Shown here piece by piece: positions 2,988 through 31,701 of a stretch of DNA of 38,054 nucleotides. Numbering within the stretch: the stretch's first letter is position 1; every line of letters begins with the position of its first letter. A model generated the notes under the pieces. That model saw only the letters and a program-made list of their open reading frames with translations. It was not told the DNA's origin and did no database searches. The position numbers and the translations under genes are program-made. Origin of the DNA: a virus; the IMG/VR virus record IMGVR_UViG_3300032058_000002, positions 1 through 38,054 of that record; one strand, 5' to 3'.

Positions 2988-3055
2988 AGTTGAGTATACA
3001 CTCCCTTAATAATATTTACATAAACAATAAGAATAAAATTAGAAATATTAAGATA

Positions 3056-3550
3056 CTAAACACTTTGCAAGGCTGATTTATATGCATCTAAATCTCCTTT
3101 TGATTGTTCTAACTTTTCAATTAACATTGTAAGATTAGCAATCTGATTTACAAGCCTCATACGATTTATTCTTAGTTCATATATAGTTTGAAATATTTTT
3201 AAACCCGATAGATTCATTATAGAATGAATTGAAGCAATCTCTATAGTAGAAGAATTTTGTAAATCTTGTGTGTTAGAAGTAAATATACTATAAATAATAT
3301 CTTTATTACTATCAGAGATTGAATTTTCTAGCCTTTCAATTCTTTTAGAAAGTATAGTTAGTTGTGTGCTTTTTACACCCTTTAAATGTTTATATAGTTC
3401 TATTTTCTTGTCAATTTGCTGTTTTGATATATCTATAATAACTTCAGCTGATTTTGTTGCTTTGTATGGAACATTGTCTACTATAAATATTCTCTGTGAA
3501 AATTGCTTAATATATTTTTTTGTTTCAGGTGAAGAGAAGTTTAAAGCCAT
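3056..3550 (-). CDS. Unrecognised baseplate-operon protein, helical
   Basis: I do not recognise this 164-aa protein. It starts at an ATG with an AGGAG site and lies 2 nt after the PAAR-like gene. The first 45 residues are mixed strand and helix (FIVDNVPYKATKSAEVIIDI). The rest is almost wholly predicted helix with heptad-like hydrophobic spacing (for example LTILSKRIERLENSISDSN and LVNQIANLTMLIEKLEQ), suggesting a two-segment coiled coil. Lying between the spike tip and the gp25-like gene, it is likely a minor baseplate component or an assembly factor. That role is inferred from position only. A 68-nt gap after it holds nothing beyond the next ribosome site. Confidence 0.6.
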   Translation of the reverse strand: MALNFSSPETKKYIKQFSQRIFIVDNVPYKATKSAEVIIDISKQQIDKKIELYKHLKGVKSTQLTILSKRIERLENSISDSNKDIIYSIFTSNTQDLQNSSTIEIASIHSIMNLSGLKIFQTIYELRINRMRLVNQIANLTMLIEKLEQSKGDLDAYKSALQSV

Positions 3551-3552
3551 TG

Positions 3553-3963
3553 TTAATCTCCTGATACTTTAGTTTGACCAGCATTAGTAACAGCCATTGT
3601 ACATGAGCAAGGTACAGGTGAACCTGTATTTGTATTTAACCATTGTCCTGAACATGTACCTGAATCATTTAATCGGATAATACTTTTACCTTCAATTTGA
3701 CATTTAACACTAGTACCCATTAAACTACCTGAACCTGCAATAAACTGAAAAGGTCCTGCAGGAGCAAATGGACAAGGTGCACCGGGATTCCACACAAATT
3801 GTATCTTATCGATCATTAAAAACCCTTCTGGTGAAGAGCACTTAGATGAAGGTGTATAAATAACCCCAGGTCTTGGTAGTGTCACAGGACCAGTTGGAAC
3901 ACAAGGTCCAGAAACTAATGTAAATGTAATTACAAGTTTATCATTAGCAAATAGAGTACCCAT
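3553..3963 (-). CDS. PAAR-like spike-tip protein (cysteine-rich)
   Basis: This 136-aa protein follows the spike gene by 9 nt. It has seven cysteines (residues 21, 42, 64, 88, 104, 119, 121), many glycines and prolines, and short beta strands. The second half reads GTSVKCQIEGKSIIRLNDS and ends TNAGQTKVSGD. This resembles PAAR-like (DUF4280-type) proteins, which have a 'v.v.Gk.v.r..D' strand and a terminal 'aGQ.KV'. PAAR proteins form a small metal-stabilised cone that caps the trimeric spike and makes first contact with the target membrane. The cysteines could bind zinc or iron. Position right after the gp5/VgrG-like gene supports this. The exact metal ligands and the family assignment are inference from pattern, not from a search. 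Confidence 0.6.
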   Translation of the reverse strand: MGTLFANDKLVITFTLVSGPCVPTGPVTLPRPGVIYTPSSKCSSPEGFLMIDKIQFVWNPGAPCPFAPAGPFQFIAGSGSLMGTSVKCQIEGKSIIRLNDSGTCSGQWLNTNTGSPVPCSCTMAVTNAGQTKVSGD

Positions 3964-3972
3964 GATTTCCTC

Positions 3973-5265
3973 TTAAGAAATTGTTAATGCACCATTAATA
4001 CTTACAGGAGAACCTGTTAGTGTAATCCCACCAGATGATTGTATTTGCACAGGACCATTTGACTGTATTTGTAGTCCACTAGATGTAAGCTGTATCGTAA
4101 CAGCATTATTACCACCTTTGATAGTCATATCGCCACTACTTGCAATTTGTATGCTACCTTTATCATTCTTAATTGTAATCTGATTTTCTTTTGTTATTTC
4201 GATTGAAGACTTTTGATTATAAATCTTTACAACTTGTTCCTTATCAATGAAAAATGTAAAGTTTGTATTTTTAATTGTTATACAATCTTGTGGATTTATA
4301 ATAACTTCAGCATTCTGTATCTTCAAATGTAATTGTGTTTTTGGTGTATTATCTTGTTTCCCAGTTTGAAATGATACATAATCTTGTGTTGCATAATCAT
4401 ATAAAAGAAACTCACCTTGGTCTGTGATACCTATACCTATACCACTTGCCATTCTTAAAAGAAATTGTAAAATCTTGGATTGTATTTTCTCTTGTTGTCC
4501 TCTTACATCAGTTACTTCTGTACTAAGAGATAATACTCCAATTGTAGGATATTTATTAACATTAGTGGATGAATCTACAATTTCAGGTTCAAGTCCTGTT
4601 TCTGGATCTACAGCTGTACCAACAAAAACAGAAAACTCTCTTAATTGCTTAGGATCATTATATTTTGATTTGTATTCTTCTTCCTTAGGATCAGAATCCG
4701 CATTTCTAAGAATATCCCCTGCACGTAGTCTAACTCCTGAAAACTCAAACTTACCAGTACTAATAAATAAATTTAGTAATGAAGAAACTGAATCAAGAAG
4801 AATATAATCGTTGTATCCTGTTTCAATTAAAACATCGCCTGACTTATTGAGATATAATTTCGACCCTCCAATACTTGTAACTTCAACTTCCCCAGGATTA
4901 AGTGAGATAAAGGGCTTATACGATGTAACTTCTTTTGTATCTTTAGGAAATGTACCATTTTCAATACCCTCAAGAAAGTATCCTAAATGTACCCATCCTT
5001 TCATTCCTCTTCCTAAAATAACATATGTTACCTCTGGGATAGGTACAAATCTAAAACCTGCTCCAACAGTTGTTACAGGCAAGTTTATATTAATACCAGT
5101 AACTTTACTATTTATTCCAAGTATAGGAATATCCACGGTCATTTTCATAGTGTAAGGATCAACAGACAACACTTTACCTATTGTAATCTCAGAAAAATCT
5201 TGTGCAGTTGTATAATCACTCTGCACACGGGGTAAAAATGAATCATAAAGCTTATTTATATTCAT
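3973..5265 (-). CDS. Central tail spike, gp5/gpV/VgrG-like
   Basis: The 430-aa product has an N-terminal OB-fold-like region at about residues 28-100, including IGKVLSVDPYTMKMTVDIP and VILGRGMKGWVHLGYF. This is the usual start of gpV, gp5 and VgrG spike proteins. The C-terminal 80 residues are a run of short alternating strands with regular spacing (QITIKNDKGSIQIASSG, MTIKGGNNAVTIQL, LQIQSNGPVQIQSSG, ITLTGSPVSINGALTIS), typical of the triple-stranded beta-helix needle. No lysozyme domain like that of T4 gp5 is visible. It would trimerise on the hub and pierce the envelope when the sheath contracts. It sits between the hub (12 nt upstream) and the PAAR-like tip (9 nt downstream), which is the expected assembly order. 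Confidence 0.85.
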   Translation of the reverse strand: MNINKLYDSFLPRVQSDYTTAQDFSEITIGKVLSVDPYTMKMTVDIPILGINSKVTGININLPVTTVGAGFRFVPIPEVTYVILGRGMKGWVHLGYFLEGIENGTFPKDTKEVTSYKPFISLNPGEVEVTSIGGSKLYLNKSGDVLIETGYNDYILLDSVSSLLNLFISTGKFEFSGVRLRAGDILRNADSDPKEEEYKSKYNDPKQLREFSVFVGTAVDPETGLEPEIVDSSTNVNKYPTIGVLSLSTEVTDVRGQQEKIQSKILQFLLRMASGIGIGITDQGEFLLYDYATQDYVSFQTGKQDNTPKTQLHLKIQNAEVIINPQDCITIKNTNFTFFIDKEQVVKIYNQKSSIEITKENQITIKNDKGSIQIASSGDMTIKGGNNAVTIQLTSSGLQIQSNGPVQIQSSGGITLTGSPVSINGALTIS

Positions 5266-5277
5266 AATCCTGCCTCA

Positions 5278-8200
5278 TCAAGATTTAGGTTTAGGTGTCC
5301 TCTTAAGATACGTTTCTACAGTAACTTGTTTTGGTTTTTTGCTCTTACCTTGTTCTGAGGGTTCAGGGATATCAAATGTTAGTTTATTCTTTTTTGTATC
5401 CCATTCATTCTCTACAAGCTCCCATATAGAAGAATTATCAAAATTATATGCTAGTTCATATAACTGGCCAAAATAACTGTCTTCAGTTACCTCACGAAGA
5501 TTATCAGGTCTCTTCTCATGACCTTGACCATATAGTTTCCTAATGATATTTTTCTTATTATTTTTTAGTTGTATAATTAATGATTTTACACCTTCAAGCT
5601 CTGCATTTTTTAATCTTAATCTGTGTAACTCTTCGTCAATCTGTAAACCTGATGTAGTGTTCTTTAACTTATCTGAAATTTCTTTAATGTCTTTTTCAAG
5701 ATTTTTACTTTTTTCTTCCTGTTTATATAGTTCAGAATCTTTTCTTGATCCATTGCCAATATTAATATACTGATTTTTTAATTCTGTAATTGTAGATGTT
5801 AAATCATTAATAACATTAATAAATGATTCTATATTACTTGCGCCAACAGCAGCAATAGAAGTATATGTAAAAGGAGAATCATTATAATTTATATGTCCTA
5901 TCATAGGATGAACAGAGAATAAACCTCCAGAAACTTTTGTTTCAAGTAATTTCTTCACAGCACTACCTGCCAGCTGTGCAAGTGGTGCACCTACAATAAC
6001 GGAAGCTTTATTGCTTACCCTTCTTGATGGTACAGTAACACCACCAGAAAATGGGATATAACTAGTACTGTAATAGGGTTCAACAGGATGGGTTTTATCA
6101 GATGGATTTTTCCATGCTTCTCGAATATTAACATCTGCATAACCAGAAAAAGCTTCTTTTGTTTGATGTATAATCCCTGTAGTATCATTTTCTAATGAGG
6201 TTATTCTACCACGTTTTGTAACTGTAGTATCAGCATAAGAAACATCAACAGTTGCATCAATTCTAGAAATAACTGAGTTAGAAGGATGATTAGATGATAA
6301 TGAACTTGTTAGTGTAACTTGTGTAGTTGTACCATTATACACTACACTCTGCACAACTTTTTCTTCTACAGATTTACCAGATAATGTAAAGTGAATAGCA
6401 TTATATAAATCATGATATGATTGCACTTTAATTTCTTTATCTCCAGGATTACAATCCTGAGACAAAGTATATGTTTGGGGTATATCTTGAAAATCTGAAA
6501 CTACTGTATTTGCTTGATACTTATGTTTTAAAGGTACAGTAAGTACAATGATATCATCTGATCCACTAGTGTAAACATCACTAATAGTTGAGTCTTCTAC
6601 AACATCTTGATTAATTGTTAATCTAGTAGCATTTCGCAAGAAGTTATAATTACCAGAAGGTTGTAAACTGATCTCAACACCATTCAGTTGCAAAGTGGAA
6701 CTTAGTTGATAAGTAGTACCTTCTTGATCTACAATAGTTGTTACACTATCAAATGAGTCTTTCAGTGGTGAATCAATAAGAAATGAAGTAGCAGAAGACC
6801 ATCCATTAAATTTTACAGTCTGTTTGAAAACAGAATGTAATGTAACATTAGTTAATGCAGAAAGATCTTTAACGTCAAGTAATAGGATAACCCTCTGACC
6901 AGTTAACGCATCTAGTGCAAGCTGGTAGAATACAGGTATATCTTGATTATCGGATACAACCGCAGATGTTGTGAAGTTATGCAATAATGCTTCTTGTAGT
7001 CTAATATAGTTCCCTGAAACAAACTCTACTCTAACTGTTTGTGTAAAACCACCTTCTTTAAATACTAACGTTAGTTTTCTTTCCAAGTCACGTGTATGTG
7101 CATACAGCAGATTGTTTCCTGTTACAGATATATCTTCTGAAAGATAAAATTTTTCACCCAACTCATTTTCAATGTAAGAAACATCTTTTAATGATTTAAA
7201 ATGAGGAAACTTTAATGAACTTGGTTCTATAATTGAAACTCGAGTGCCTGTTATATTTCCAATCCTAAATGATTCAGTTTGTGTTCGTTCCAATATAAAT
7301 GTAAGGTAACGAGGTAGTGATGAATTTCTTAAGTCAACAGGTATAAATCTAGAGGATTGAGACAATGTAGAAGTTACAGCGTATGATGTAGAATTTCCAT
7401 CCGTAACAGAAATCGGAGATACTGAAGTCGGAATATATGTATCTTGTAATGCTTCTTGTAAGATAATTCCATTAGATGCAACTGATTTTATGAACACATT
7501 CTCCTCTTGGTGTTTTGAAAATCGTAGTTTAAGTTTTTTAAGTAAGTTACTTATTACTCCATTAGTGTTAGCACAAACAAGAAATGTATTTCCTGATCTA
7601 GGTTCAATTCTAATAGAATAATGTGTGCCTAAACCATCAACAAGTGAGATTTCATCAAGCTGATAGGAGTACATGAGTGGTGCTGATAGCATCAGTGTAG
7701 TATTGTTACGCACACACGAAACTTTTATATTTTCTGTTTGGTTACTACTAATCACAATAGCATTAGATATTGCTAAGACAGGTGAAAGGTCTCCTGTACA
7801 TTCAATATAAAACTGCCCTAAATTTGCAGGAGATGCTAATGTACCAATAGGTTCTAATATTCTAGTAAAACGAAATGCAATTTTATTACCAAGTGCACCT
7901 TCAAGTGTACTAGTAAGTGTTGCTAAAACAATACTTTTATATTGTTTACCGTTAATAACACTAGTTGCAGACTTGGTATATCCTTTCTGTGGCACCATTG
8001 TAGTAGATGTAGGCTTCACAACTCCAATAAGTCCTGCAACACCAGCTTGTGCTGCTAACGGTAAAACTGATTTTCCAGCAGATTTCAAAAGTGATGTAAG
8101 TTTTGTGCCACTTTTACCTTTACCAGTTACTCCTATGGACTCAAAATATTCTTCTTCTTTTTTGCGTAGCTTTACTATATCTGATTTAGAAACAAGGGTA

Positions 8201-12229: not shown

Positions 12230-15200
12230 TTACCTCAACTCCTGTGATAATTTTGAACGAATAGCTTCAAAAATTAAATCTTTATCCATTGTATCTGCTT
12301 TTATATTGATAACAATCTGTGGTTTAGTTTCAACATTAACAATAGGGGATATTTCTTTCTTTGAACTATGAATAAGTGTATCTAACGAACCCTTAGCAGC
12401 TTCATTCATTTGTGAAGGTGTTAATACATCAATAGAACCATGTCCTATCATGAAAGCTTCATTCTTACCTAAAGAAGGTAATATATATTCAGAAATATCA
12501 GTAACAATTCCTGACGATAAAGAGACACCTTTTGCACCTGAATGGTGGTGCGTTACTTTACCACTAATCAAATCTGCTGTTGCACCTATCATCTTACTCA
12601 CTGTTTCTGAGCCTTGCCCAGATTTTTGAAGTGCAGCTTTCATTGTGTTCCCTATTTCCGTCATAGACGTTGCAAACCCTGTAGTTAATTGAGTTTGAAA
12701 TTGCGTTAGTACTGCTTTATCACTAGCTGCTCCCCACCATGGAACAGCACTTTTGACAGCCCTGTAGATGATAAATGGAAGTCCAACCATAACACTAGCA
12801 ATAAGAACTATTAAATTAAATGCAGCAAGTTGTATCTTCTGATTATACTCAGTTAAGCCAGCAACTCTAGCAATATTACGTGAGATCTGTTCTTGTACTG
12901 GTAGCGTTTTCCCTTGCAAGGTCTTAACTACTTCCTCATTTTTCAATTCTTTTTCACTTACAGACAATAACGCAAGTATACCTTCCTTACTCATACCAAA
13001 CATCTGTTGTCCTGCTATTATTGCAGCTACAAGTGCTTCATCTTTAGATTTCCCTTTCATAGCCTCTTTTAATGTATCTAGCTTAACAAGTACATCTCGC
13101 TGTGCTGTTATGCTTTCTAATCCTTGGAATATACCTCTTGTACCCTTTTCTGATAGCTTTCCAATAGACAATACAGGTTGTGCCCCTCCTTCAAGATTGA
13201 TTGTGTAAGATTTAGCAACCTCAGCACCTAGTAATTCTTGTACAATACCTTGAGTTGGCGTAACACCGGCTTTCCCACCTTTAGTACCAAGGTATGCAAG
13301 CATAGAGAGACTATATTGTGATCTATCAAACCAGTCTTTCATAATTCGTTGTTGTGTTTGAGCATCACCTATATTAATACCTAACGCTCCTAATTGACTT
13401 GATTTTTCCACAAGTTTTATTAACGAAGATGTAACTATTGTTGTATCTATATTAAACATACGCATTTGTGGAGCTAAATTAGATATGGTCTGCAACAAGG
13501 AAGATGTTGTTACAAGTGTACCTTTAAGTTTACCTCCTAGATTTTCTGTTACATATAATACAGTACGAAATGAATTAGTAGCATCACCAAGACCTGTTAA
13601 GATACCCTTAAATGCTTCTGTACCATACTCGCCAAGTTCTTTATACAAGTTTGCATATTGAAATAACAAAGGGGAACCCTGTGCTAACTGTGTTGTTGCA
13701 TCAAGTCCTGTTTTAGCAAGCTCTTGGGCTAGCCTAAGTGCATCCTCTCTTGTTATATACATGCTTGAATACAGTGCTTCAATGTTAGCAGCACTTCCCC
13801 ATCCACCCTGGGTAGGTGAAGCTGCATATCCTTTCTCAGAAGCAAATGCTCTAGCAGCAAGGGCTTTCTGCTGTGCTACACCAACTCCAAATACTATGGC
13901 ATTTATAACAGCATCTACCATTGTACCTGTTATTTTACCTGCTGATTCACCTAATGCTATACCCGCTAAGGTTGATATACCACTACCCACTGTCTTAAGT
14001 GCACCTGTTAAACCAGTTGATAGCAAATCATTTGCTATTCCTATACCTGTACCTAATATACCATATGTACTTTTAACAGCCATATGTGCAAGTGAAGATA
14101 TAACTGAACCTAACGCCCCTAAAAAAGAACCAAAAGTAGGTTTTCCTATCCCCTTCCCCTGTTCTACTTGTTTCTGTGACATTTCTTCAGGTAGCTTAGT
14201 TAGCATAGTCATAGACTCTTCTTGTACATCAAGTGTGTCCCTACTTATACTTACTTGTTTCTTAGATTGTTTATTTAAGTCATCTAGTGTATTTGCTTGT
14301 TGTACCAGAATTTTCTGTTGTGAAGTTCCAGACATCTCTGCTACTACCTGAGAGGCGGTTTTAAACGATTCTGCTACAACATTCTTAAATGGGACAAACT
14401 CTTCTGGTAAAGCTACTTTAGCTTTTCTCTTCCGACTAGATATAGTTTCCTCTTCAGGTAGTCCAGCTAAACTTAATCCTAGTACATCTGCTGCAATTGA
14501 GTACTTATCTCTACCTAGAAAAGGAAATAATGAAGGTAGTGTTTCTTTGAAACCTTCAGCTACTTCTGGTACTGATGTTTTTGCACCTTCAGTTACCGCT
14601 TTTATAGCATTTCTATGTCCTACACCAAATAGAAACCCAAAAGCTTTTTCAGCAAAAGTAGGTTCCCTTTTTGGTACTCCTGCCGCAGTCATTTCAAAAT
14701 CTCTATTTATCTTTTCAAGTTCTTCTTGTGTTCTCTCCTGTTCTCTTTGTTGTTTTGTATATCTGATCTTAGCACCTACAAATCCAAGAATCCTTTCAGT
14801 AGAAGAAGCATCATATCGTAAATTGCCTTTGTAAGCTTCAACAAAACTTTCTACCCCTAACGCTTTTGCGGATCGTTCTGCTATTCCCCCTATCTTTTCT
14901 TTAACATGTGTGCTAAATGTATAAGGAGAACTAGCTTGTTCTACTTTTTGTATGTCTTGTAGTCTCTTTTTATATTCCTCTAATAATGCAGTTTTCTTTT
15001 GCAATTGCAAAATTTCAAGAACATGTTCATAATTAGTATCTGCTGTTATATCAACTTTAAACTTGTTATTTTTTATCCAGTTATTAAGTTTTTCTTTTAA
15101 ATCATCTAAACTTTTAATTTCAGATAAACTAAAGTCTAGTTGTAACTTAGTATGCTGCCCTAACCATTCATCTAGTAACTTTTTTGACTTTTCTAAATCA

Positions 15201-15676
15201 GAACCTTTGAGCTCAATACCTACTTGAGCGCCCCATTGCTTCAGAATATGTAATAGTTTGCTAGCATCATCTTGCACACTTTTCAACTCTTGCTTTAAGT
15301 TGCGTATAGATTGAATATGATTTTCAACAAGCTTGATTGAATCTGTAGTACTAAGATTATATTGTTTTTGTAAAGCTGATAATTGCGCTTGTACTCCTGT
15401 AATAAGAGCTAAGGAGGATCTTAAAGAACCTAAATACTCTACAGAATCTTTAATAACATTCTGAAACGATTGTGATTGGTCTAGTAGCTGCTTTGCTTTC
15501 TGGTTTGTGCCACCAAAAAGTGAATAAATTGATTGAAGTGCACGCTCTACTTCTGCTATATCTCCTCTCAGTGCAGATATCACTTTTGTAGGGTCACCTG
15601 TTTCAGTTGCTAGTGATTTGATTCTTTCAAGTAAGATATCTCGCTTCTGCTGTTGTGTACTTTGTTCTTCAGGCAT
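12230..15676 (-). CDS. Tail tape measure protein
   Basis: The 1148-aa protein has the expected position (after the frameshifted chaperone pair) and composition. The N-terminal 330 residues are long charged helices with coiled-coil spacing. A glycine- and alanine-rich hydrophobic block covers roughly residues 510-610 (for example GTGIGIANDLLSTGLTGALK). A second hydrophobic segment lies near 970 (LIVLIASVMVGLPFIIY). Near the C-terminus there is an HHHSG stretch followed by EAFMIGHGSIDVLTPSQ. Tape measure proteins set tail length, fill the tube and are ejected first, and hydrophobic segments may act at the host membrane. At about 0.15 nm per residue it predicts a tail near 170 nm, which is inference. 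Start: ATG with AAGGAG 6 nt upstream. Confidence 0.85.
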   Translation of the reverse strand: MPEEQSTQQQKRDILLERIKSLATETGDPTKVISALRGDIAEVERALQSIYSLFGGTNQKAKQLLDQSQSFQNVIKDSVEYLGSLRSSLALITGVQAQLSALQKQYNLSTTDSIKLVENHIQSIRNLKQELKSVQDDASKLLHILKQWGAQVGIELKGSDLEKSKKLLDEWLGQHTKLQLDFSLSEIKSLDDLKEKLNNWIKNNKFKVDITADTNYEHVLEILQLQKKTALLEEYKKRLQDIQKVEQASSPYTFSTHVKEKIGGIAERSAKALGVESFVEAYKGNLRYDASSTERILGFVGAKIRYTKQQREQERTQEELEKINRDFEMTAAGVPKREPTFAEKAFGFLFGVGHRNAIKAVTEGAKTSVPEVAEGFKETLPSLFPFLGRDKYSIAADVLGLSLAGLPEEETISSRKRKAKVALPEEFVPFKNVVAESFKTASQVVAEMSGTSQQKILVQQANTLDDLNKQSKKQVSISRDTLDVQEESMTMLTKLPEEMSQKQVEQGKGIGKPTFGSFLGALGSVISSLAHMAVKSTYGILGTGIGIANDLLSTGLTGALKTVGSGISTLAGIALGESAGKITGTMVDAVINAIVFGVGVAQQKALAARAFASEKGYAASPTQGGWGSAANIEALYSSMYITREDALRLAQELAKTGLDATTQLAQGSPLLFQYANLYKELGEYGTEAFKGILTGLGDATNSFRTVLYVTENLGGKLKGTLVTTSSLLQTISNLAPQMRMFNIDTTIVTSSLIKLVEKSSQLGALGINIGDAQTQQRIMKDWFDRSQYSLSMLAYLGTKGGKAGVTPTQGIVQELLGAEVAKSYTINLEGGAQPVLSIGKLSEKGTRGIFQGLESITAQRDVLVKLDTLKEAMKGKSKDEALVAAIIAGQQMFGMSKEGILALLSVSEKELKNEEVVKTLQGKTLPVQEQISRNIARVAGLTEYNQKIQLAAFNLIVLIASVMVGLPFIIYRAVKSAVPWWGAASDKAVLTQFQTQLTTGFATSMTEIGNTMKAALQKSGQGSETVSKMIGATADLISGKVTHHHSGAKGVSLSSGIVTDISEYILPSLGKNEAFMIGHGSIDVLTPSQMNEAAKGSLDTLIHSSKKEISPIVNVETKPQIVINIKADTMDKDLIFEAIRSKLSQELR

Positions 15677-15685
15677 ATATACTCC

Positions 15686-16111
15686 TTATAGTATATCTTT
15701 CTTAACTACAGATTCAGGTAACACAACCTTATGTGTCTCTATATCTACTAATCCTACTCCTGGAACGTATTTAGAGTTTGCAGATACATGTTCTATTCCA
15801 CCAATAAGAGCACGACCAGATTCCTTTAGGTTCTTCTGTTTTTCTTTATATTCAGAGTACACTTTATAAATTTCTGGATGAGTTAAATAACCAACTAACT
15901 CTGCAGCAGGTTCAAACAGAGATTGCCATTCTTTTAACATGCGAATGCGTAAGAAATGGAAGAGCATCAACCATTGCACATCTTTTAAGCTTTGTACTTC
16001 ATTTGAATTTGGATTCCAACCATTCATTGCGCACACCAGGTATTTTAGGAATTCAAAGTCACCCATCAACTCCTGGAGTGTTTTTTCATCTGATGATGGG
16101 TGACTTAGGAG
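15686..16111 (-). CDS. Tail assembly chaperone, frameshift-encoded C-terminal part (gpT-like)
   Basis: This frame is open from 16120 to a stop at 15686 and should be reached by -1 slippage from the upstream chaperone gene at 16117-16111. The added part is 141 residues, beginning LLSHPSSDEKTLQELMGD and continuing through a tryptophan-rich helix region (FLKYLVCAMNGW, VQWLMLFHFLRIRM). That resembles the T part of lambda-type G/GT chaperones. The only internal starts are a TTG at 16069 and an ATG at 16066. Their AGGAG is 0-3 nt away, too close for normal initiation, which favours frameshifting. The predicted fusion protein is about 403 aa (16896 to 15686). It would bind the tape measure protein and recruit tube subunits, and is normally absent from mature virions. 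Confidence 0.75.
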   Translation of the reverse strand, partial: LLSHPSSDEKTLQELMGDFEFLKYLVCAMNGWNPNSNEVQSLKDVQWLMLFHFLRIRMLKEWQSLFEPAAELVGYLTHPEIYKVYSEYKEKQKNLKESGRALIGGIEHVSANSKYVPGVGLVDIETHKVVLPESVVKKDIL

Positions 16112-16117
16112 TTTTTT
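16056..16117 (-). promoter_or_regulatory. -1 programmed ribosomal frameshift signal
   Basis: On the minus strand, codons read CTA AAA AAC TCC TAA. The heptamer A AAA AAC (16117-16111) is a canonical -1 slippery site in the correct phase and lies one codon before the zero-frame stop. Four bases later a perfect 13-bp inverted repeat begins: AAGTCACCCATCA at 16106-16094 pairs with TGATGGGTGACTT at 16068-16056, around a 25-nt loop. The -1 frame then stays open for 141 codons. Confidence 0.85.
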
Positions 16118-16896
16118 AGTTTATCCAATGCTTCATTTCTTCTTTTATCTACTTCAACATATGCTGCATAAAGGCTATCTATTACTGATGGTGGAAAGTG
16201 CTCAAGATATCTGCGTAATGCTTTTTTAACTGCAATAATATACGCCATTTGTGTAGAATAATCGGATGCTTTTATTGTATCTTGGAACATTTCATAAATA
16301 GTAACACCATTAATACCTTCCAGCGCATATACAATCTGTGCAAATGCAATAGCAGACAACCTACCTACTGTGCTGTTAATCATATCGTCTACTTCATCAA
16401 GTACTAGTAGCATATCAGATTGGTCTAACGCACGTAAAGTCCACTTCTGCTGATACAGTAAAACATCCTCTTTATACTCACCTTTAGCAATCAAAGACTT
16501 CAAAACATCAAGTGGTTTTTGTAAACCCTGTACAGCAGGTTTTACTTTTTGTAAATCTTCAGTGATTTTCTCTTCAATGATTGATTCTTTGGAAGGACCA
16601 GTATTTGTAACCGTTTGAGAAATACGAGAACGCTGCTGTGCATTAGGCATCTCTACATTTGGATCTTGATGCAAATCAGGTATATTAGGTTGTTGTGTAT
16701 ACGTGTTAAGTTGTTGTGTATACGTGTTAGGTTGTTGTGTATACGTGTTAAGTTGTTGTGTATATGAATTGTCTTGTGCTTGTGCGTGCTGAAAATTTTT
16801 TACTTGATTTTGCAACTGCTGTGCTTGTCTTTCAAGTAACACCTGTTCTACAGGCATGAACTCATCAGATAGATTAGGGTTTGTTATAGGTTTCAT
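16105..16896 (-). CDS. Tail assembly chaperone, main product (gpG-like)
   Basis: The frame extends upstream to 16923, but the ATG at 16896 has a perfect AGGAGG 5 nt upstream, so I choose it (263 aa). The N-terminal 100 residues are glutamine-rich and low in complexity, with a YTQQ(L/P)NT repeat. The rest is helical and acidic (for example VLDEVDDMINSTVGRLSAIAF). It lies between the tube and tape measure genes, where lambda G and its equivalents are found, and ends just beyond a slippery heptamer that fuses it to the next frame. In lambda and many other tailed phages, G and GT together coat the tape measure before tube assembly. Sequence similarity to G is not obvious; the call rests on position and the frameshift. 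Confidence 0.75.
   Translation of the reverse strand: MKPITNPNLSDEFMPVEQVLLERQAQQLQNQVKNFQHAQAQDNSYTQQLNTYTQQPNTYTQQLNTYTQQPNIPDLHQDPNVEMPNAQQRSRISQTVTNTGPSKESIIEEKITEDLQKVKPAVQGLQKPLDVLKSLIAKGEYKEDVLLYQQKWTLRALDQSDMLLVLDEVDDMINSTVGRLSAIAFAQIVYALEGINGVTIYEMFQDTIKASDYSTQMAYIIAVKKALRRYLEHFPPSVIDSLYAAYVEVDKRRNEALDKLKNS
16690..16767 (-). repeat. 21-bp tandem repeat in the chaperone gene
   Basis: Three full 21-bp units (16690-16710, 16711-16731, 16732-16752) differ at one position, an alternating a/g. A partial fourth follows to about 16767. They encode the seven-residue repeat NTYTQQ(L/P). The period is a multiple of three, so unit gain or loss keeps the frame. Confidence 0.85.
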
Positions 16897-16923
16897 TGTA
16901 ACCTCCTGTCTTAGTACAGACAT

Positions 16924-16986: not shown

Positions 16987-17655
16987 TTATACATAATACT
17001 TAATTGGTCGAATTCTAGTTGCTATTACAGTACCTTCTTCTAATATTGCTTCATTCCTTTCTGCTGTAGGTATTCTTTCACCTAGTTTAGTTATCCAGCA
17101 TTCAAAAAATACTCTACCAAAGATAATAGCACCAGTTGTTGGTGCATAATATACTTCAAATATATCAATTGGTCTAACCTGCTGCAGCAAACTTACATAC
17201 GTATTAAGTAAGGTTGTATCATTAGAGTTTGGATCGCGTGAAACATCTCCTTCAGTTCCTGCTAAGTCAGCCCTAACCATCGCTGCGAGTAAGTTAGAAC
17301 TATACAAAGCATAGCGTTTTAAGTTAATAGTAATTTCCTTCTGCTTTCCAGGTATAACTTCACATGCTTCGCCAGGCCAGTAGTTGGTTTGACCAAAAGT
17401 TTGTTCAGTTAACGCACCCCAACCTGTACCAAATGTATTATTAGGGAAAGGTTCAATCTGGTGTATAGTTTGAGCGTCACGTGTTAAATCATAACTAAAC
17501 TCATTTATGTAACCAATTGCCATGTGCTCAGTTCCGAATCGTACCCCCATTGTAATGGACTGTATTGCAGATCTTGGTACAGGTGTTTCAACACCAGGTA
17601 CTCCTCCACCTGCCATACCCCAGTTAATTGGAAGTATTCTATTAGGAAGTGCCAT
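16987..17655 (-). CDS. Tail tube protein
   Basis: The 222-aa protein directly follows the sheath gene (13 nt gap, with AGGAGG) and precedes the chaperone pair, the standard position of the tube gene in contractile phages. It is beta-rich with few charges. It contains strands typical of the tube fold, such as SITMGVRFGTEHMAIGYINE, the segment IPGKQKEITINLKRYAL, and a C-terminal FGRVFFECWITKLGERIPT followed by EGTVIATRIRPIKYY. Tube subunits of the gp19 type stack as hexamers inside the sheath and carry DNA to the cell. I saw no exact family motif, so the name rests on size, fold-like pattern and order. The 16-bp hairpin after it could help raise its mRNA stability. Confidence 0.8.
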   Translation of the reverse strand: MALPNRILPINWGMAGGGVPGVETPVPRSAIQSITMGVRFGTEHMAIGYINEFSYDLTRDAQTIHQIEPFPNNTFGTGWGALTEQTFGQTNYWPGEACEVIPGKQKEITINLKRYALYSSNLLAAMVRADLAGTEGDVSRDPNSNDTTLLNTYVSLLQQVRPIDIFEVYYAPTTGAIIFGRVFFECWITKLGERIPTAERNEAILEEGTVIATRIRPIKYYV

Positions 17656-17668
17656 AGATTATTTCCTC

Positions 17669-19969
17669 CTACAGTAATATAGTGTAATATCCTTCAGTAT
17701 ACTTATGCGTATAAACAGCATAGTATGAATACTTAATAACAACTGTATCAGGTTTTTGTGAAGAAACTGCTACATTTATATCCCCAATTGACTCAATAAG
17801 TCTATTGTTAAGGTATGAGATAAAGAGGTTGGATAAGTAACCTTTAATCATTCCAGCATATCCACCTCTATTATAAATCAAAGAACCTCTAAATGTTCTA
17901 TCCATCTGGATAGCAACATCTCTTGCAATATAATCTTTAGCGGTAATGATATTAATGTTATTGCGTTTGACTGTGCTGTTATCGGTTGTCAAATCATCAA
18001 CAACTTTAAACACACCACCTGAAGAAGTAAGCAAGAAGCAACTATCGCTACCAGCTTGCTGTAACATATAATCTGTATAGTAACTATCGTAATCATCTTC
18101 AAATGGTTCTAATCCAGGTACTACACGACCAAGCAATGTTGTTGTTGGACTTGGGAAAGAATCCCTAAAAGCCATTACAGCTGCACCAATGAAAGCACCA
18201 TCAACAACAGTTGTTGCTTGTTGTCCTGTTGTTGGATCTGTATAGTAATATTTTGCACGAGTGGCATTAACAAACACAACCCGTTCACACTTTAATGTTG
18301 TAGCTATTCCACGAAGTGAATTCGGATCTGAGCTATCCCCAACTGGTGTTAAAGCTGGTGCACCTGTCCAAGCCATACGATATCGACCATTATCTGGTAA
18401 ACTGCGTTCAACAACATGTGCTTGTAATGCTGCACGACATAATGGTGAAGAATTAAGTATAGCAACATCTTGTACATCCCTATACTTGATAACATCAAGT
18501 GCATTAATATAATCAGAAATAGTTGCAGTGGGTCTGACCTGAACTATCGCAATTCTTGGAACATTGTAGTTCTTGAGTGCAAGTTTTGCAATCATCACTA
18601 AATCATTTTGTGGTATTTCTTCACCAAGATCATCTAAGACATCCTCAAAAGTCCAGAATTCTTTATATTTCATGAAGTCTGTACTTGGTCTATTAATTTC
18701 ATAAGAAACATAATATGTACCACCAGTTGCAACCTTCGGTGTATTTTGTATTGTAATACTTTGACCTATTTTCAGTAAATCAAGATTGGCAGGATCACCT
18801 GTTATAGTAATAGATGTTCCTCCAACAAGCACTTGTACTTTTATAACAAACATATAGTCAGTACCACTGATATTAGCAACAATCTGTGAACTATTAGCAG
18901 CACGTGCTATTGTTACAGGGGAAGCAAGCCTTAATTCTAACTGACCTGATGTGCTTGTTATTGTCTGACCATTCGTTATTGTAACAGTACTAGAACTTCC
19001 TGGAGTTGTAGCTGAAATCCTAATGTCTCCTCCAACGATTGCAACATTAAATCCATCACTAGATATAGCTGCATTCAGTTTTGAAACTAAATCACTGTAT
19101 GTAGTAGCACCTGTATCTAACATGATGCCATATTGTTTAGAATTGACGTTAATATAGTAAACATTACCTGCTATCAATCCAGAAGAAGTCCCACCTACAA
19201 TACCTGTTAAGCCAAATTCCTGATAAGCACTTGTTGCATCTTGTCCAGCAACTGCTGTTTCAGGTGTTGCACTGAGTGCAGCTAACAAGTCATTTGAAGT
19301 TCCTGCACCTATTGAAACAGTAGAACTTGAACCAGTAGTAGTATTGGTGACACGAATATCTCCACCAACAATAGATACAGCAAAGCTAGTTGATGAAAGT
19401 TGTGTATTAATTGCGTCAACAAGACCTTGATATGTCATTCCACTAGTAACAACCACTGAATAATTTACTTGTGAACCAGATGTAGTACCTATCTTGATTT
19501 CATATGCACCTACAGATAATCCACATCCAGCTGTTCCTACAATACCAGTTAACCCAAATTCCTGATAACCTGATGTTGCATTAGAACCAGGTACACTTGG
19601 ATCAGGTGTTGTACTTAATGCACCAAGTAATCCTGTACCTACAACCCCACCTGTAATAGTGTTACTTTCACTATTCACTAACCATGTAATATCACCAGTT
19701 GTTAAGTTAACTGAGATATCTACACCTTCAATTATGTCATTCAATCCACGTTGTGTTCCGCACTGCAGTATACGATATATACCAGTAGAATACTGCTCAA
19801 GTTTATCAACTGTTCCAGCAACTCTTGTAACACTTTCAAATAAGATTTTCTTATAAGGACTTGCTTTACCTATAAAACATGGTTTTCGCTGGGTGCTAGT
19901 TGGATTCGGTGCACCAGGTATCTCTATTTCCTCAATAACAGTCCCAGGTAATCTATAACCTAATGCCAT
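17669..19969 (-). CDS. Tail sheath protein with duplicated insert
   Basis: The 766-aa protein is longer than T4 gp18 (659 aa) and much longer than compact sheaths (about 390-490 aa). The N-terminus (LGYRLPGTVIEEIEIPG) and the final strands (DTVVIKYSYYAVYTHKYTEGYYTILL in part) are sheath-like; the C-terminal arm would link neighbouring subunits. The conserved core lies at about residues 400-766, including NDLVMIAKLALKNYNVPRIAI and the segment FIGAAVMAFRDSFPSPTTTLLG. Residues about 114-333 are two tandem copies of an inserted beta domain that interrupts the N-terminal half. The sheath contracts to drive the tube through the envelope. It begins a transcript unit with its own candidate promoter at 20056-20074. 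Its start has a GAGGAG ribosome site about 6 nt upstream. Confidence 0.87.
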   Translation of the reverse strand: MALGYRLPGTVIEEIEIPGAPNPTSTQRKPCFIGKASPYKKILFESVTRVAGTVDKLEQYSTGIYRILQCGTQRGLNDIIEGVDISVNLTTGDITWLVNSESNTITGGVVGTGLLGALSTTPDPSVPGSNATSGYQEFGLTGIVGTAGCGLSVGAYEIKIGTTSGSQVNYSVVVTSGMTYQGLVDAINTQLSSTSFAVSIVGGDIRVTNTTTGSSSTVSIGAGTSNDLLAALSATPETAVAGQDATSAYQEFGLTGIVGGTSSGLIAGNVYYINVNSKQYGIMLDTGATTYSDLVSKLNAAISSDGFNVAIVGGDIRISATTPGSSSTVTITNGQTITSTSGQLELRLASPVTIARAANSSQIVANISGTDYMFVIKVQVLVGGTSITITGDPANLDLLKIGQSITIQNTPKVATGGTYYVSYEINRPSTDFMKYKEFWTFEDVLDDLGEEIPQNDLVMIAKLALKNYNVPRIAIVQVRPTATISDYINALDVIKYRDVQDVAILNSSPLCRAALQAHVVERSLPDNGRYRMAWTGAPALTPVGDSSDPNSLRGIATTLKCERVVFVNATRAKYYYTDPTTGQQATTVVDGAFIGAAVMAFRDSFPSPTTTLLGRVVPGLEPFEDDYDSYYTDYMLQQAGSDSCFLLTSSGGVFKVVDDLTTDNSTVKRNNINIITAKDYIARDVAIQMDRTFRGSLIYNRGGYAGMIKGYLSNLFISYLNNRLIESIGDINVAVSSQKPDTVVIKYSYYAVYTHKYTEGYYTILL
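18971..19630 (-). repeat. Tandem duplicated domain inside the sheath
   Basis: Two copies of about 105-115 residues (19630-19286 and 19285-18971). Matching landmarks are LLGALSTTPD/LLAALSATPE, then YQEFGLTGIVG in both, a Y.I.V/I strand, TYQGLVDAINTQLSS/TYSDLVSKLNAAISS, VGGDIR in both, and GSSSTV in both. The pattern resembles the hook-IN type module of flagellar proteins and surface modules of other phage proteins. Confidence 0.8.
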
Positions 19970-21705: not shown

Positions 21706-22716
21706 TTACAATAAAGTATAAATTACACCACCAACATCTTCTATTGCACGTATTAACTCAGTATCAAATTCAGTATGTAACAATTGAAGTTGCGGACCAT
21801 ATGTATACTTTGTGAGTTTAACAGCCCTGTATCGCTGACCTGAAAACGTACCAGTTAAGAACTCAATTACATCAGTTTCTTCAACTCTTACTTCAGGCAT
21901 AACCCACCAACGCAATGGCTTCTTAACAGTCCAACCATATTCACCTTGTGCTACTTCTTCAGTTGGAGCAACACGAGAGGCTAAAAATGCAGGTATATGT
22001 ATATTAAATCTATTATCAATCTCCCAAAGAGTTGGATGGTTTCTATATCTAAATCGTATTGAATTAAACTTACTACTAGGAGATGTAGAAGTTTTTCTTT
22101 CAAATACAACTCTAAACTTAATTTGTGTAGGATATGGTTCAGTAAATACAAGCGATTGTGCTTTACGATTACTTAACAAATCAGTTGAAGGTACCATTGT
22201 TAGTTCTGTCCATGTAGTACCATCTATAGAGTAATAATATCTTACTCTATTTATACTAGGATCAAACTGATCTGCTACAAGAAAATAATCTACCTCACAA
22301 AATTTTTCTAATGATAACCATGTAGTTTCTATATAACCTGTCAATGCTGTACCTGATAGTGTAAATGCTTTTCTATCAGCTTGGACAATAACCCCTGGAG
22401 ATTGATAATCATATTTTGATGGGGTTGACAGTGTATACTCTTTGTAACCATATTTTTGATAACCTTCTAAGTAGCCTGTTCCATCACATAAAATATGTGT
22501 TTTATCAGGAGTATTTGTTTGAGAGTTCCAGCAATAGCATCTAGTAAGCCCAGGCACAACATTACCTATTGGAGTAATAGTGGAATTCTTAAACAATGTA
22601 CAAGGAGAGCCAAACCCATTCATAATAATACGATTACGGTTTAGTAGTCTGTTGTAGATATTATATTTATCTACAACCCCACGTATATCATTTCTGGTTG
22701 TATTAGTCCATCTCAT
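21706..22716 (-). CDS. Probable neck protein with four-cysteine cluster and discoidin-like region
   Basis: The 336-aa protein has two notable parts. At residues 39-90 there is a cluster C39, C60, C62, C77, with RCYCWN and LCDGTGYLEGYQK. The 'CxGTGy..G' form resembles the DnaJ-type zinc loop that also occurs in neck proteins of some large phages. From about 95 to 225 is a beta region with YYYSIDGTTWTELTMVP and IKFRVVFERK, resembling a discoidin (F5/8 C-like) jelly roll, which often binds sugars. The rest (WWVMPEVRVEETDVIEFLTG) is again beta-rich. It would be a virion protein near the head-tail joint, by position. The ATG overlaps the Nudix gene by 14 nt. Zinc binding and the jelly roll are inference. 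Confidence 0.6.
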   Translation of the reverse strand: MRWTNTTRNDIRGVVDKYNIYNRLLNRNRIIMNGFGSPCTLFKNSTITPIGNVVPGLTRCYCWNSQTNTPDKTHILCDGTGYLEGYQKYGYKEYTLSTPSKYDYQSPGVIVQADRKAFTLSGTALTGYIETTWLSLEKFCEVDYFLVADQFDPSINRVRYYYSIDGTTWTELTMVPSTDLLSNRKAQSLVFTEPYPTQIKFRVVFERKTSTSPSSKFNSIRFRYRNHPTLWEIDNRFNIHIPAFLASRVAPTEEVAQGEYGWTVKKPLRWWVMPEVRVEETDVIEFLTGTFSGQRYRAVKLTKYTYGPQLQLLHTEFDTELIRAIEDVGGVIYTLL

Positions 22717-23263
22717 ACAAGCTCTTCTTGAAGATAAAATAAACCAATGATAACATAGATATAATTTCCATACTTGTACTAGAAGTGATAAGTTTTTCTA
22801 TAGCAAAGAAATCGACCCACAAGTTTGTGCTTAACTGCTCAAAATAATCATCACCAGTAGTTGGTGTTGCAGGTTCCAAGTAAGACGACAAATCAACTAA
22901 GTATACATAAAATTCCTTTTTGATACAAATATAAGGAAAGAGAATTTTCTTAATAAGTGCTACATCATTTTCAGAAACTTTATAACCAGTTTCCTCTTGT
23001 AATTCTCGTATTGCTGTTATAACAGGATTAAACTCTTCTCCTCTATCTATCGTCCCTGAAATAGGTCTAAGCACCATACCTAAGTGAGGTGTATATTCTT
23101 GTCGGATTAGAAACCGAACACTATTTTTATGCAAAGACTCATTATAATACACTTTAAATGGAAGAATATAAACTCCACCAGGTTCAACAATATACTCATA
23201 TCCTTCTGAACTCTTAAATACTTCTAGATACTTACCTTTATATTCAAGTTTATCACTCACCAA
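22703..23263 (-). CDS. Nudix hydrolase
   Basis: This 186-aa protein carries a Nudix box at residues 70-94: GTIDRGEE ... AIRELQEETGYKV. The catalytic REL.EETGY is exact. The stretch between the first glycine and REL is two residues longer than the standard GX5EX7RE spacing. The family hydrolyses nucleoside diphosphates linked to another group; the substrate cannot be read. The overall layout (N-terminal VEPGGVYILPFKV strands, SVRFLIRQEYTP before the box) is closest to the ADP-sugar pyrophosphatase type. It starts at TTG (23263) or GTG (23260), both served by AGGAGG (9 or 12 nt away). It overlaps the upstream gene by 4-7 nt and the downstream gene by 14 nt, so it is co-translated with virion genes. 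Confidence 0.85.
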   Translation of the reverse strand: MVSDKLEYKGKYLEVFKSSEGYEYIVEPGGVYILPFKVYYNESLHKNSVRFLIRQEYTPHLGMVLRPISGTIDRGEEFNPVITAIRELQEETGYKVSENDVALIKKILFPYICIKKEFYVYLVDLSSYLEPATPTTGDDYFEQLSTNLWVDFFAIEKLITSSTSMEIISMLSLVYFIFKKSLYEMD

Positions 23264-27803: not shown

Positions 27804-27813
27804 CTAAAAAATT

Positions 27814-27844
27814 AAAGCTTAGCCCTGTTATAGGGCTAAGCTTT
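27814..27844 (-). terminator. Intrinsic terminator after the capsid gene
   Basis: AAAGCTTAGCCCT and AGGGCTAAGCTTT form a perfect 13-bp stem with a 5-nt loop. On the minus strand it is followed by AATTTTTT. It lies 37 nt after the capsid stop codon. Confidence 0.85.
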
Positions 27845-27880
27845 ATTAAACAACAAAAGGGGGTTCTTATAGTATTATAA

Positions 27881-29736: not shown

Positions 29737-31701
29737 TTACTTACTTAAATTTTCCATCTGGTATGCACGCCAGAAGTCTGCATATAATTTTCTTGAGTCA
29801 TCTTTCTTATCAGAAGGAGTTCCTCTTAAAGGAACAGATGCTTGTTTTACTTTAACATCACTTTCTTCTTTTCTAGGTTCTGCATTCTTTGATACCAGCT
29901 GAGAACCATCATACGCTTTTACAAACTTAACAATCTCACCAAACTTGTTGAGATCTTGATGATATAAGAAGTCAAATGCTTCTTTGATAACATTTACCTG
30001 GCTATCCTCATAACCTTTCAAGAAAGCATTATGTACAATAGCATCAGCAACATCTGCAGATACATTTAATGTAGAAGTAATCTCTTCAATTAATGCATCC
30101 TTCAGAGGATTAGGAATAAGCCCTTTTAGTTGCTGCTGACAAGCTAAAGAAGTTGCAAGCCTAGCTTTCATTAAGGAAGCTTTAACAGCTCTCTTAATAG
30201 CATCAGCTGCATACTGTTCGTCTGTTGCACTTGCTTTTTTAGGTTTTGGAAACTTAGCTTTGAATTCAGAAATATCTGTCCTCTTACCCAATGAAATAGG
30301 AGAATTTTCATCTGGTAAATTATCCCCGGTACCTTTTAATGGAGCTACTTCTTTATTGTTAAGCTTAGTATCCTGTTTCTGTGTACAAAGGTCTTTCCAA
30401 GAACCATACAACTGACCTTCTTTTTTCTGTTCCATCCTATTTTGCCTAAGTGCAGCTAACCTTTCTCTCAATCTAGATATAGTTTCTTCTCTTGAAGATT
30501 TTTCTTGTAGCTTTCTCGTAGGCTCTTCTTTTAAAGGAGCTTCTTTACCTTCCTCTTTTTTACCTTTTTCTTCTTTCTCTTTACCTTTTTCTTCTTTCTC
30601 TTTACCTTTTTCTTCTTTCTCTTTACCTTTCTCAAGCATTTTACTTTCAGATTCTAAGGCTTTATTACCTTCTTCTAAAAAGTTGTTTCCTTCCTCAATT
30701 GCATTATCAATATCTGAAAGTTCATCAACAGAAAGGTTTTTCTGATTCTGATCTCTAAAGGAAACACCTTGGCTAACAGCTTCAAGTACCTGGTTTAACA
30801 AATCTTTTACAGTTTCAAGTTGCTGTTGAATATCAGAATCCGAAGGTTTCGGTTCATCTAAGAATTTTAATGCACCAAGATCTTCATTAGCTGAACCATC
30901 ACTTACTTCATCTACTGCCCCTTTTGCTTTTTTTAAGTTTGTAAAAAAAGCATGTTTTACTTTCATCTGTGCAAGTTTTCTAAAACCTGACTTTGCTTGA
31001 TGTACAGAACCTTTGATTTGATTAACAACATTCTGTGATGTTAAAGAAGCAGTTGAGATAACACCATCTTGAATTTTAATGTCCATATGTCTCTCCTTAC
31101 TTACAGTTGATTGTTTACTACCTGTTGGTACAACAGTTTGATTCTTGTTTTCTAAGAGTTTCTTAAAAAACTCTTTTATTTCATCTTCCTTTCGGGATTT
31201 AATATAATCCCTAAGCAAGATATCTATATCCCAACCTCTTGAAACAAGGTTTTCAAGGATAGATACAACATCAATCTGATTTAGAACTTCTAATAGTAAT
31301 TCAAGTGAGCTTTCCCTTTCATCTGCTGAATTTTTAATCTTAGATGCTCGAGTAAACATTGGTTGATAAGTAAAAGTATTCTCTGTAGAAATATCCTCTA
31401 CATTACGATTGGAATTAATTTTTATATATTGATCATATAAAATATCCTTTAAGTCCTTGGAAAGTGAATCAATTGCTCTTATGTACAGCTCTTGTTCTGG
31501 TGTTAATTCCACCGGTTCTCCTGCAGGAGGCCAACCTAGTTCAAGTGCACCTGTATCTCCAAGATCTAGCCCACCTTCTCCTACAGGAGTTACATCATGT
31601 AGATTAGGCACTTCGTGTACACCAACATCATCTATATCTTCATCAGATATATTAGTATCTCCAATATCTAATCCAGTAGGACTATCAAGAGTTTCTGGCA
31701 T
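29737..31701 (-). CDS. Scaffold-like / procapsid core protein
   Basis: The 654-aa protein has an acidic N-terminus (DIGDTNISDEDIDDVGVHEV), long charged helices, and a lysine/glutamate run of EKEEKGK repeats at about residues 357-381. The part after that contains SREETISRLRERLAALRQN and ends in a folded region near 500-620 (ADAIKRAVKASLMKARLA, then FLKGYEDSQVNVIKEAFDF). High charge, helix and repeats upstream of the capsid gene fit a scaffold or core protein that templates the prohead and is then removed, possibly by the protease-like protein. No scaffold family motif is recognised. The leader (31702-31878) carries an AAGGTGAG ribosome site. Confidence 0.5.
   Translation of the reverse strand: MPETLDSPTGLDIGDTNISDEDIDDVGVHEVPNLHDVTPVGEGGLDLGDTGALELGWPPAGEPVELTPEQELYIRAIDSLSKDLKDILYDQYIKINSNRNVEDISTENTFTYQPMFTRASKIKNSADERESSLELLLEVLNQIDVVSILENLVSRGWDIDILLRDYIKSRKEDEIKEFFKKLLENKNQTVVPTGSKQSTVSKERHMDIKIQDGVISTASLTSQNVVNQIKGSVHQAKSGFRKLAQMKVKHAFFTNLKKAKGAVDEVSDGSANEDLGALKFLDEPKPSDSDIQQQLETVKDLLNQVLEAVSQGVSFRDQNQKNLSVDELSDIDNAIEEGNNFLEEGNKALESESKMLEKGKEKEEKGKEKEEKGKEKEEKGKKEEGKEAPLKEEPTRKLQEKSSREETISRLRERLAALRQNRMEQKKEGQLYGSWKDLCTQKQDTKLNNKEVAPLKGTGDNLPDENSPISLGKRTDISEFKAKFPKPKKASATDEQYAADAIKRAVKASLMKARLATSLACQQQLKGLIPNPLKDALIEEITSTLNVSADVADAIVHNAFLKGYEDSQVNVIKEAFDFLYHQDLNKFGEIVKFVKAYDGSQLVSKNAEPRKEESDVKVKQASVPLRGTPSDKKDDSRKLYADFWRAYQMENLSK
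30559..30633 (-). repeat. 21-bp tandem repeat encoding EKEEKGK
   Basis: Three identical 21-bp units (30559-30579, 30580-30600, 30601-30621) and a 12-bp partial copy. They encode the charged heptapeptide and keep the frame. Perfect identity suggests recent expansion. Confidence 0.9.

Follow-up and report, generated by a model that had tools for sequence, protein, structure and literature searches.

The window analysed here, a 38-kb virus record (38,054 nucleotides), belongs to a large tailed phage that probably makes two tail-chaperone versions, a part of its ribosomes slipping by -1 at AAAAAAC before an RNA hairpin. The sequences point to a programmed -1 ribosomal frameshift of the lambda-type G/GT tail chaperone, stimulated by the downstream RNA hairpin, and we put the probability of this reading at roughly 0.93. 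A lambda-type tail chaperone frameshift with a downstream stem had been proposed from the letters of the window alone (the sequence-only reading), and the comparison with seven related phages bears it out: the slip site and the -1 T frame are found in all eight genomes, a covarying stem in seven of them, and a homologous joined gene in Bacillus phage G. The frameshift signal is very probably real and of a well-known kind. Judged by its pattern of change, the stem exceeds what the protein requires and is under selection as RNA in seven of the eight genomes. The slipping itself, any rate it may have, the boosting role of the stem and the roles of the proteins are inferred. The locus provides, in a little-known phage group, a chaperone frameshift stem that is conserved by compensatory changes beyond the requirement of the protein, and annotation of these phages should join the G and T frames into a single fusion gene.

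Organization of the locus

All genes around the frameshift site are carried on the minus strand, on which the window has the order sheath, tube, G, T and tape measure (Table 1). The two frames overlap and are flanked by the genes of the major tail protein and the tape measure, as seen in the gene order of the window and of the relatives L002 and L003. The open reading frame of G extends further than the start adopted in the table, to an ATG at 16923, which would give 272 aa. A second assembly is 99.9% identical to the window over 12.8 kb and shows no differences in the G-T region.

Table 1. Features of the frameshift site and of the neighbouring genes, in window coordinates
Feature	Position	Strand	Details
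Probable tape measure gene, directly downstream of T	12230..15676	-	Length and position; phage G and Myrna have an annotated tape measure at the equivalent place
T, -1 frame	15686..16111	-	141 codons and stop at 15688-15686; homologous -1 frame in 8 of 8 genomes
Stem 3' arm TGATGGGTGACTT	16056..16068	-	Covers the T-frame ATG 16066-16064
Loop, 25 nt	16069..16093	-	Contains a small ACTC-CAG-GAGT hairpin (folding)
Stem 5' arm AAGTCACCCATCA	16094..16106	-	Family-conserved core from G 16104, 6 nt past the heptamer
Zero-frame stop TAA	16105..16107	-	One codon (TCC) after the heptamer; last two A within the lower stem
G, zero-frame tail assembly chaperone	16105..16896	-	263 aa; ATG 16896 aligns with relatives
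Slippery heptamer A AAA AAC	16111..16117	-	In phase (Leu CTA, Lys AAA, Asn AAC); in-phase A AAA AA(A/C) in 8 of 8 genomes
Probable tail tube gene, upstream of G	16987..17655	-	Position and conserved gene order
Tail sheath	17669..19969	-	Similar by tblastn to sheaths annotated in Bacillus phage G and in Myrna-like phages

Slip site, reading frames and stem

At the site, the minus strand reads ...GAT AAA CTA AAA AAC TCC TAA GTC ACC CAT CAT... The sequence-only reading had placed A AAA AAC in phase one codon before the zero-frame stop and had given the -1 frame 141 codons; both statements can be read directly from the sequence. Across the junction the -1 reading is N|LLSHPSSDEK..., so that the predicted junction peptide of GT is ...LKNLLSHPSSDEK, and T would be made only as part of a GT fusion of about 403 aa. 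In all genes of the window, A AAA AAC occurs in phase twice, against 3.8 occurrences expected from codon usage, and the copy at the end of G is the only one that stands at a gene end; the in-phase heptamers A AAA AAA and A AAA AAG are also rarer than expected among these genes.

The perfect 13-bp stem described 4 nt past the heptamer is there exactly as claimed. Folding gives -21.9 kcal/mol, with a z of -4.2 against dinucleotide shuffles of a 72-nt stretch. Only two inverted repeats in the 38 kb have perfect arms of at least 13 bp with loops of 3-40 nt: one is the frameshift stem, and the other lies between genes at 27813-27845, where a T run comes after it on the minus strand, and is probably a transcription terminator. 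The spacer of the window amounts to 4 nt only if two A-U pairs below the core are counted, and these pairs are found only in the window, L014 and L015 among the eight genomes. The core that is shared begins directly after the stop codon, at GTC, leaving a spacer of 6 nt in seven of the eight genomes, which falls within the approximately 5-9 nt past the heptamer that characterize stem-loops of the dnaX and IS type.

Conservation of the slip site among relatives

Seven further phages were collected by protein searches with G, with the sheath and with the gene that follows the tape measure, leaving out near-duplicates. These relatives are found on viral contigs of 38-253 kb. They bring the set to eight sequences, for the most part pieces of uncultured phages, whose fused chaperones share 32-64% pairwise identity. 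In every relative G adjoins T, and T starts in the -1 frame at the last base of the heptamer. The slip site is CTA or TTA followed by AAA AAC in six genomes, CTA AAA AAA in L002 and TTA AAA AAA AAT in L003, which means that a Leu codon ending in A and an in-phase AAA AA(A/C) are kept in all eight. The zero-frame stop comes 0-1 codons past the heptamer throughout, and the alignment of the eight genomes is free of gaps from the slip site through the end of the stem. An in-phase slippery heptamer near the end of G, with T in the -1 frame, is the arrangement of the lambda type, and it is present in each of the eight genomes.

A scan of 2.9 million viral contigs for the heptamer-to-stem pattern returned only members of this phage group; given that the pattern was built from group members, it is the absence of outside matches that is informative. 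A direct DNA search of a phage collection gave no matches, nor did tblastn with T or with the G of L018, and a scan of bacterial genomes with the protein profile found no relatives. The DNA pattern scan of genomes produced nine matches, which were taken as chance given that none had G or T nearby.

Selection on the stem

Compensatory changes in related phages, named from the start as a check on the stem, are present: the stem is kept in seven of the eight genomes, with pairs changed on both sides. In these seven it has the form GTC(AC or GT)CC... / ...GG(T or C)GAC, with 10-12 of the 12 core positions paired. Over the whole alignment 83% of the cells are paired in the stem, a value that falls to 26-54% in register-shifted versions, and changes on both sides are seen in nine cells, whereas shuffles give 2.8 (0 of 500 as high). 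RNAalifold recovers the same helix. The change between CAC and CGT (His-to-Arg) in one arm tracks a silent change between GGT and GGC in a Gly codon of the other arm, and this swap of CAC+GGT and CGT+GGC, an A-U/G-C double change, is forced by well-supported branches of the tree to have occurred at least two times.

Given that the stem arms encode conserved residues, a synonymous null was used, in which the -1 protein was held fixed and its codons were resampled from the usage of the same genome (three genes per genome). The MFE has a z of -2.8 to -4.8 against this null in seven genomes, and of +0.5 in L003. It can be argued that the frameshift is real and that the stem stimulates nothing, being produced incidentally by the conserved peptide (S-H/R-P ... 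L-V/M-G-D). Indeed, synonymous recodings of the same peptide already pair about 7-9 of the 12 positions; moreover, lambda and P2 showed no significant fold after their slip sites, in agreement with a remark in the literature, where certain tailed phages are described as seemingly shifting without stimulatory signals (PMC5009743). Nonetheless, we consider a by-product improbable, given that the folds of seven genomes lie so many standard deviations below what the peptide imposes, that the silent Gly change has repeatedly accompanied the His/Arg change on the opposite arm, and that an unrelated hairpin stands at a comparable distance in Myrna-like phages.

Start of T and origin of the frame change

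A second explanation does without a frameshift altogether: T would be translated separately, by re-initiation or internal start at TTG 16069, ATG 16066 or later, coupled to the termination of G, and the stem would serve as a gate. These are the first starts of the T frame in the window and lie just past the G stop; AGGAG is found 3 nt upstream of the ATG, and seven of the eight genomes have ATG or GTG at the place of this ATG. In L003, however, the codon there is TTA and the first ATG, GTG or TTG of the open frame comes only at codon 57, inside the conserved domain. In all eight genomes, moreover, the alignable part of the T frame, conserved residues included, reaches back beyond the ATG to the slip site, and these two observations together argue strongly against a separate start. 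To this are added the conservation of the heptamer in eight of eight genomes and the fact that AGGAG is not conserved at a workable distance, given that inspection by eye of the eight genomes revealed no conserved, well-spaced Shine-Dalgarno element at the start of T. Separate translation of T is therefore very unlikely. The same observations bear on the proposal that the stem blocks independent starts. Its far arm does cover the T-frame ATG and may mask this internal codon, but masking does not appear to be the general purpose of the stem, given the TTA of L003 and, by eye, the lack of a conserved, well-spaced Shine-Dalgarno element.

The sequence-only reading had also pointed to a possible competing pairing of ACTCCT (16112-16107) with AGGAGT (16074-16069). 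This complementarity is present in the window, but it is not a feature of the family, given that only in the window (P 0.007) and in L002 (P 0.023) does it exceed the synonymous null, the other six of the eight genomes not being above it; with eight tests made, this evidence is weak. The pairing would link the slip region with the loop, and would thus resemble a pseudoknot more than a structure competing with the core stem.

Long A runs are known sites of transcriptional slippage, and the frame could change by slippage of the polymerase on the A run during transcription. The slip-site runs of 6 A in the window, 7 in L002 and 9 in L003, and the lack of a stem in L003, would suit such an origin. 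A run of six is short for transcriptional slippage, however, and the covarying stem at the position of a ribosomal stimulator, together with the geometry of the in-phase heptamer, points to the ribosome, leaving polymerase slippage still less probable than a separate start of T. Split frames on A runs are also a common assembly artefact, but both the 99.9% identical assembly and the seven diverged phages show this split, each with an intact T frame, which makes a sequencing error or a decayed gene a negligible prospect.

Proposed mechanism and the stem-less relative

In the programmed ribosomal frameshift favoured here, most ribosomes would decode CTA AAA AAC TCC and stop at TAA, yielding G. 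When AAA occupies the P site and AAC the A site, the distance between the first base of the P-site codon and the core stem would be 12 nt, which would put the stem at the mRNA entry, where it would slow the ribosome; the frameshift hairpins of dnaX and HIV pause ribosomes at 11-12 nt from this base (PMC7282821). A fraction of the ribosomes would then re-pair on AAA AAA and read on through CTC CTA AGT..., yielding GT. In lambda, the binding partner of G is the tape measure protein, and T brings in the tube protein (PMC5009743); assuming the same roles, G would coat the tape measure protein in this phage, and tube subunits would be brought in through the T part of GT. A_AAA_AAC is far less shift-prone than A_AAA_AAG in E. 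coli (PMC5009743), and bacterial ribosomes appear poorly tolerant of AAC-to-AAA re-pairing (PMC4066793), which would make a strong hairpin plausible as a booster.

The one genome that departs from this arrangement, L003, has no stem and carries a run of nine A at its slip site (6470-6530). Given that its sister L002 (support 100/99) keeps the stem, L003 has probably lost it, and its absence there means that the stem is not strictly required. Any link between this loss and the nine-A run is a guess from one case. A possible, though rather doubtful, extension is that in this group a strong hairpin under selection, working on a heptamer weak in E. coli, sets the G:GT ratio, with a GT share unlike the low level of lambda, and that the L003 lineage replaced the hairpin by a longer A run, possibly acting partly at transcription. 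If true, this lineage would have traded one way of setting the G:GT ratio for another. With seven members that have the stem and one without, the group forms a natural set for testing how the chaperone ratio is set.

Protein identity and comparison with known systems

The identification of G and T as chaperones is based on gene order, weak profile matches, fold similarity and homology to phage G. Scans of G and T against Pfam and PHROG returned no confident family, with weak matches of G to the PHROG 'tail assembly chaperone' in two of the eight members; the same scans gave no family matches for the tail tube candidate. Structure models were of moderate confidence (pLDDT of 66 for G and 73 for T). 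Foldseek matched the G model to the tail assembly chaperone of Rhodococcus phage Finch (4e-5) and to gp181 of Bacillus phage G (4.5e-5), and the best match of the T model was gp182 of the latter. Homology to known chaperones is also indicated by hhalign, in which the family profile aligned with the gp182 fusion of phage G with an E of 4e-6, the alignment running through the junction.

Bacillus phage G has a joined CDS, gp181/gp182, noted as a tail assembly chaperone, with the gene order and the -1 direction of the window, and its slip site, GAA TTA AAA AAC TAG, carries A AAA AAC, as the window does, at the E-L-K-N codons of an ELKN* ending. It differs in having only a small downstream hairpin (fold z of -1.3), a much longer T and TAG directly after the heptamer. 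The mycobacteriophages Myrna, Phabba and ScoobyDoobyDoo carry, ahead of the tape measure, a chaperone CDS that is annotated as joined, and a strong hairpin stands about 6 nt past the heptamer, although their heptamer is G GGA AAA and the sequence of their hairpin is different. A hairpin at the chaperone frameshift is therefore not unique to the group of the window; no paper describing one was found in the open-access literature. The Myrna chaperone was also considered as a sequence relative, and the comparison gave no convincing similarity.

Phage lambda shows the arrangement proposed for the window: a -1 slip shortly before G ends yields a GT fusion, and the two frames lie between the genes of the major tail protein and the tape measure (PMC5009743). 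Its heptamer is G GGA AAG, and no significant fold follows it. HK97 was not kept as a control, since the script apparently selected a heptamer other than its real slip site. In lambda-type G/GT systems, GT is a minor product and is absent from virions. The signals of E. coli dnaX and of IS elements combine, as here, an A-rich heptamer with a stem-loop. An upstream Shine-Dalgarno stimulator also belongs to dnaX; at the slip site of the window no upstream stimulator was recognised. The heptamer of dnaX is A AAA AAG (PMC5009743), unlike that of the window, and frameshift stimulators generally start 5-8 nt downstream (PMC4066793).

Other features of the window and its relatives

The sheath of the window has 766 aa, versus 463 aa in L002 and L003, and the extra part precedes the conserved C-terminal domain. 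In L002, an ORF of 610 aa (3002-4834), homing-endonuclease-like by eye, separates the sheath gene from the tube gene. The variable N-terminal part of G contains a 21-bp tandem repeat (3.8 copies, 16685-16764) encoding NTYTQQ(L/P) repeats that are absent from the relatives. Another tandem repeat of 21 bp, perfect and in 3.4 copies, is found at 30559-30630 within the ORF 29737-31701. Rfam and tRNA scans of the window gave no matches. An ORF in the structural gene cluster (22703-23263) has a Nudix-box-like motif (GTIDRGEEFNPVITAIRELQEETG).

Finally, the contig L021 (Virus Rctr197k) has at 13422-14656, in the equivalent gene position, a probable unannotated -1 frameshift. Its record annotates two separate CDS; C CCT TTA stands in phase at 13913, a T-like frame is open in -1, and the family profile aligns, weakly, across the junction.
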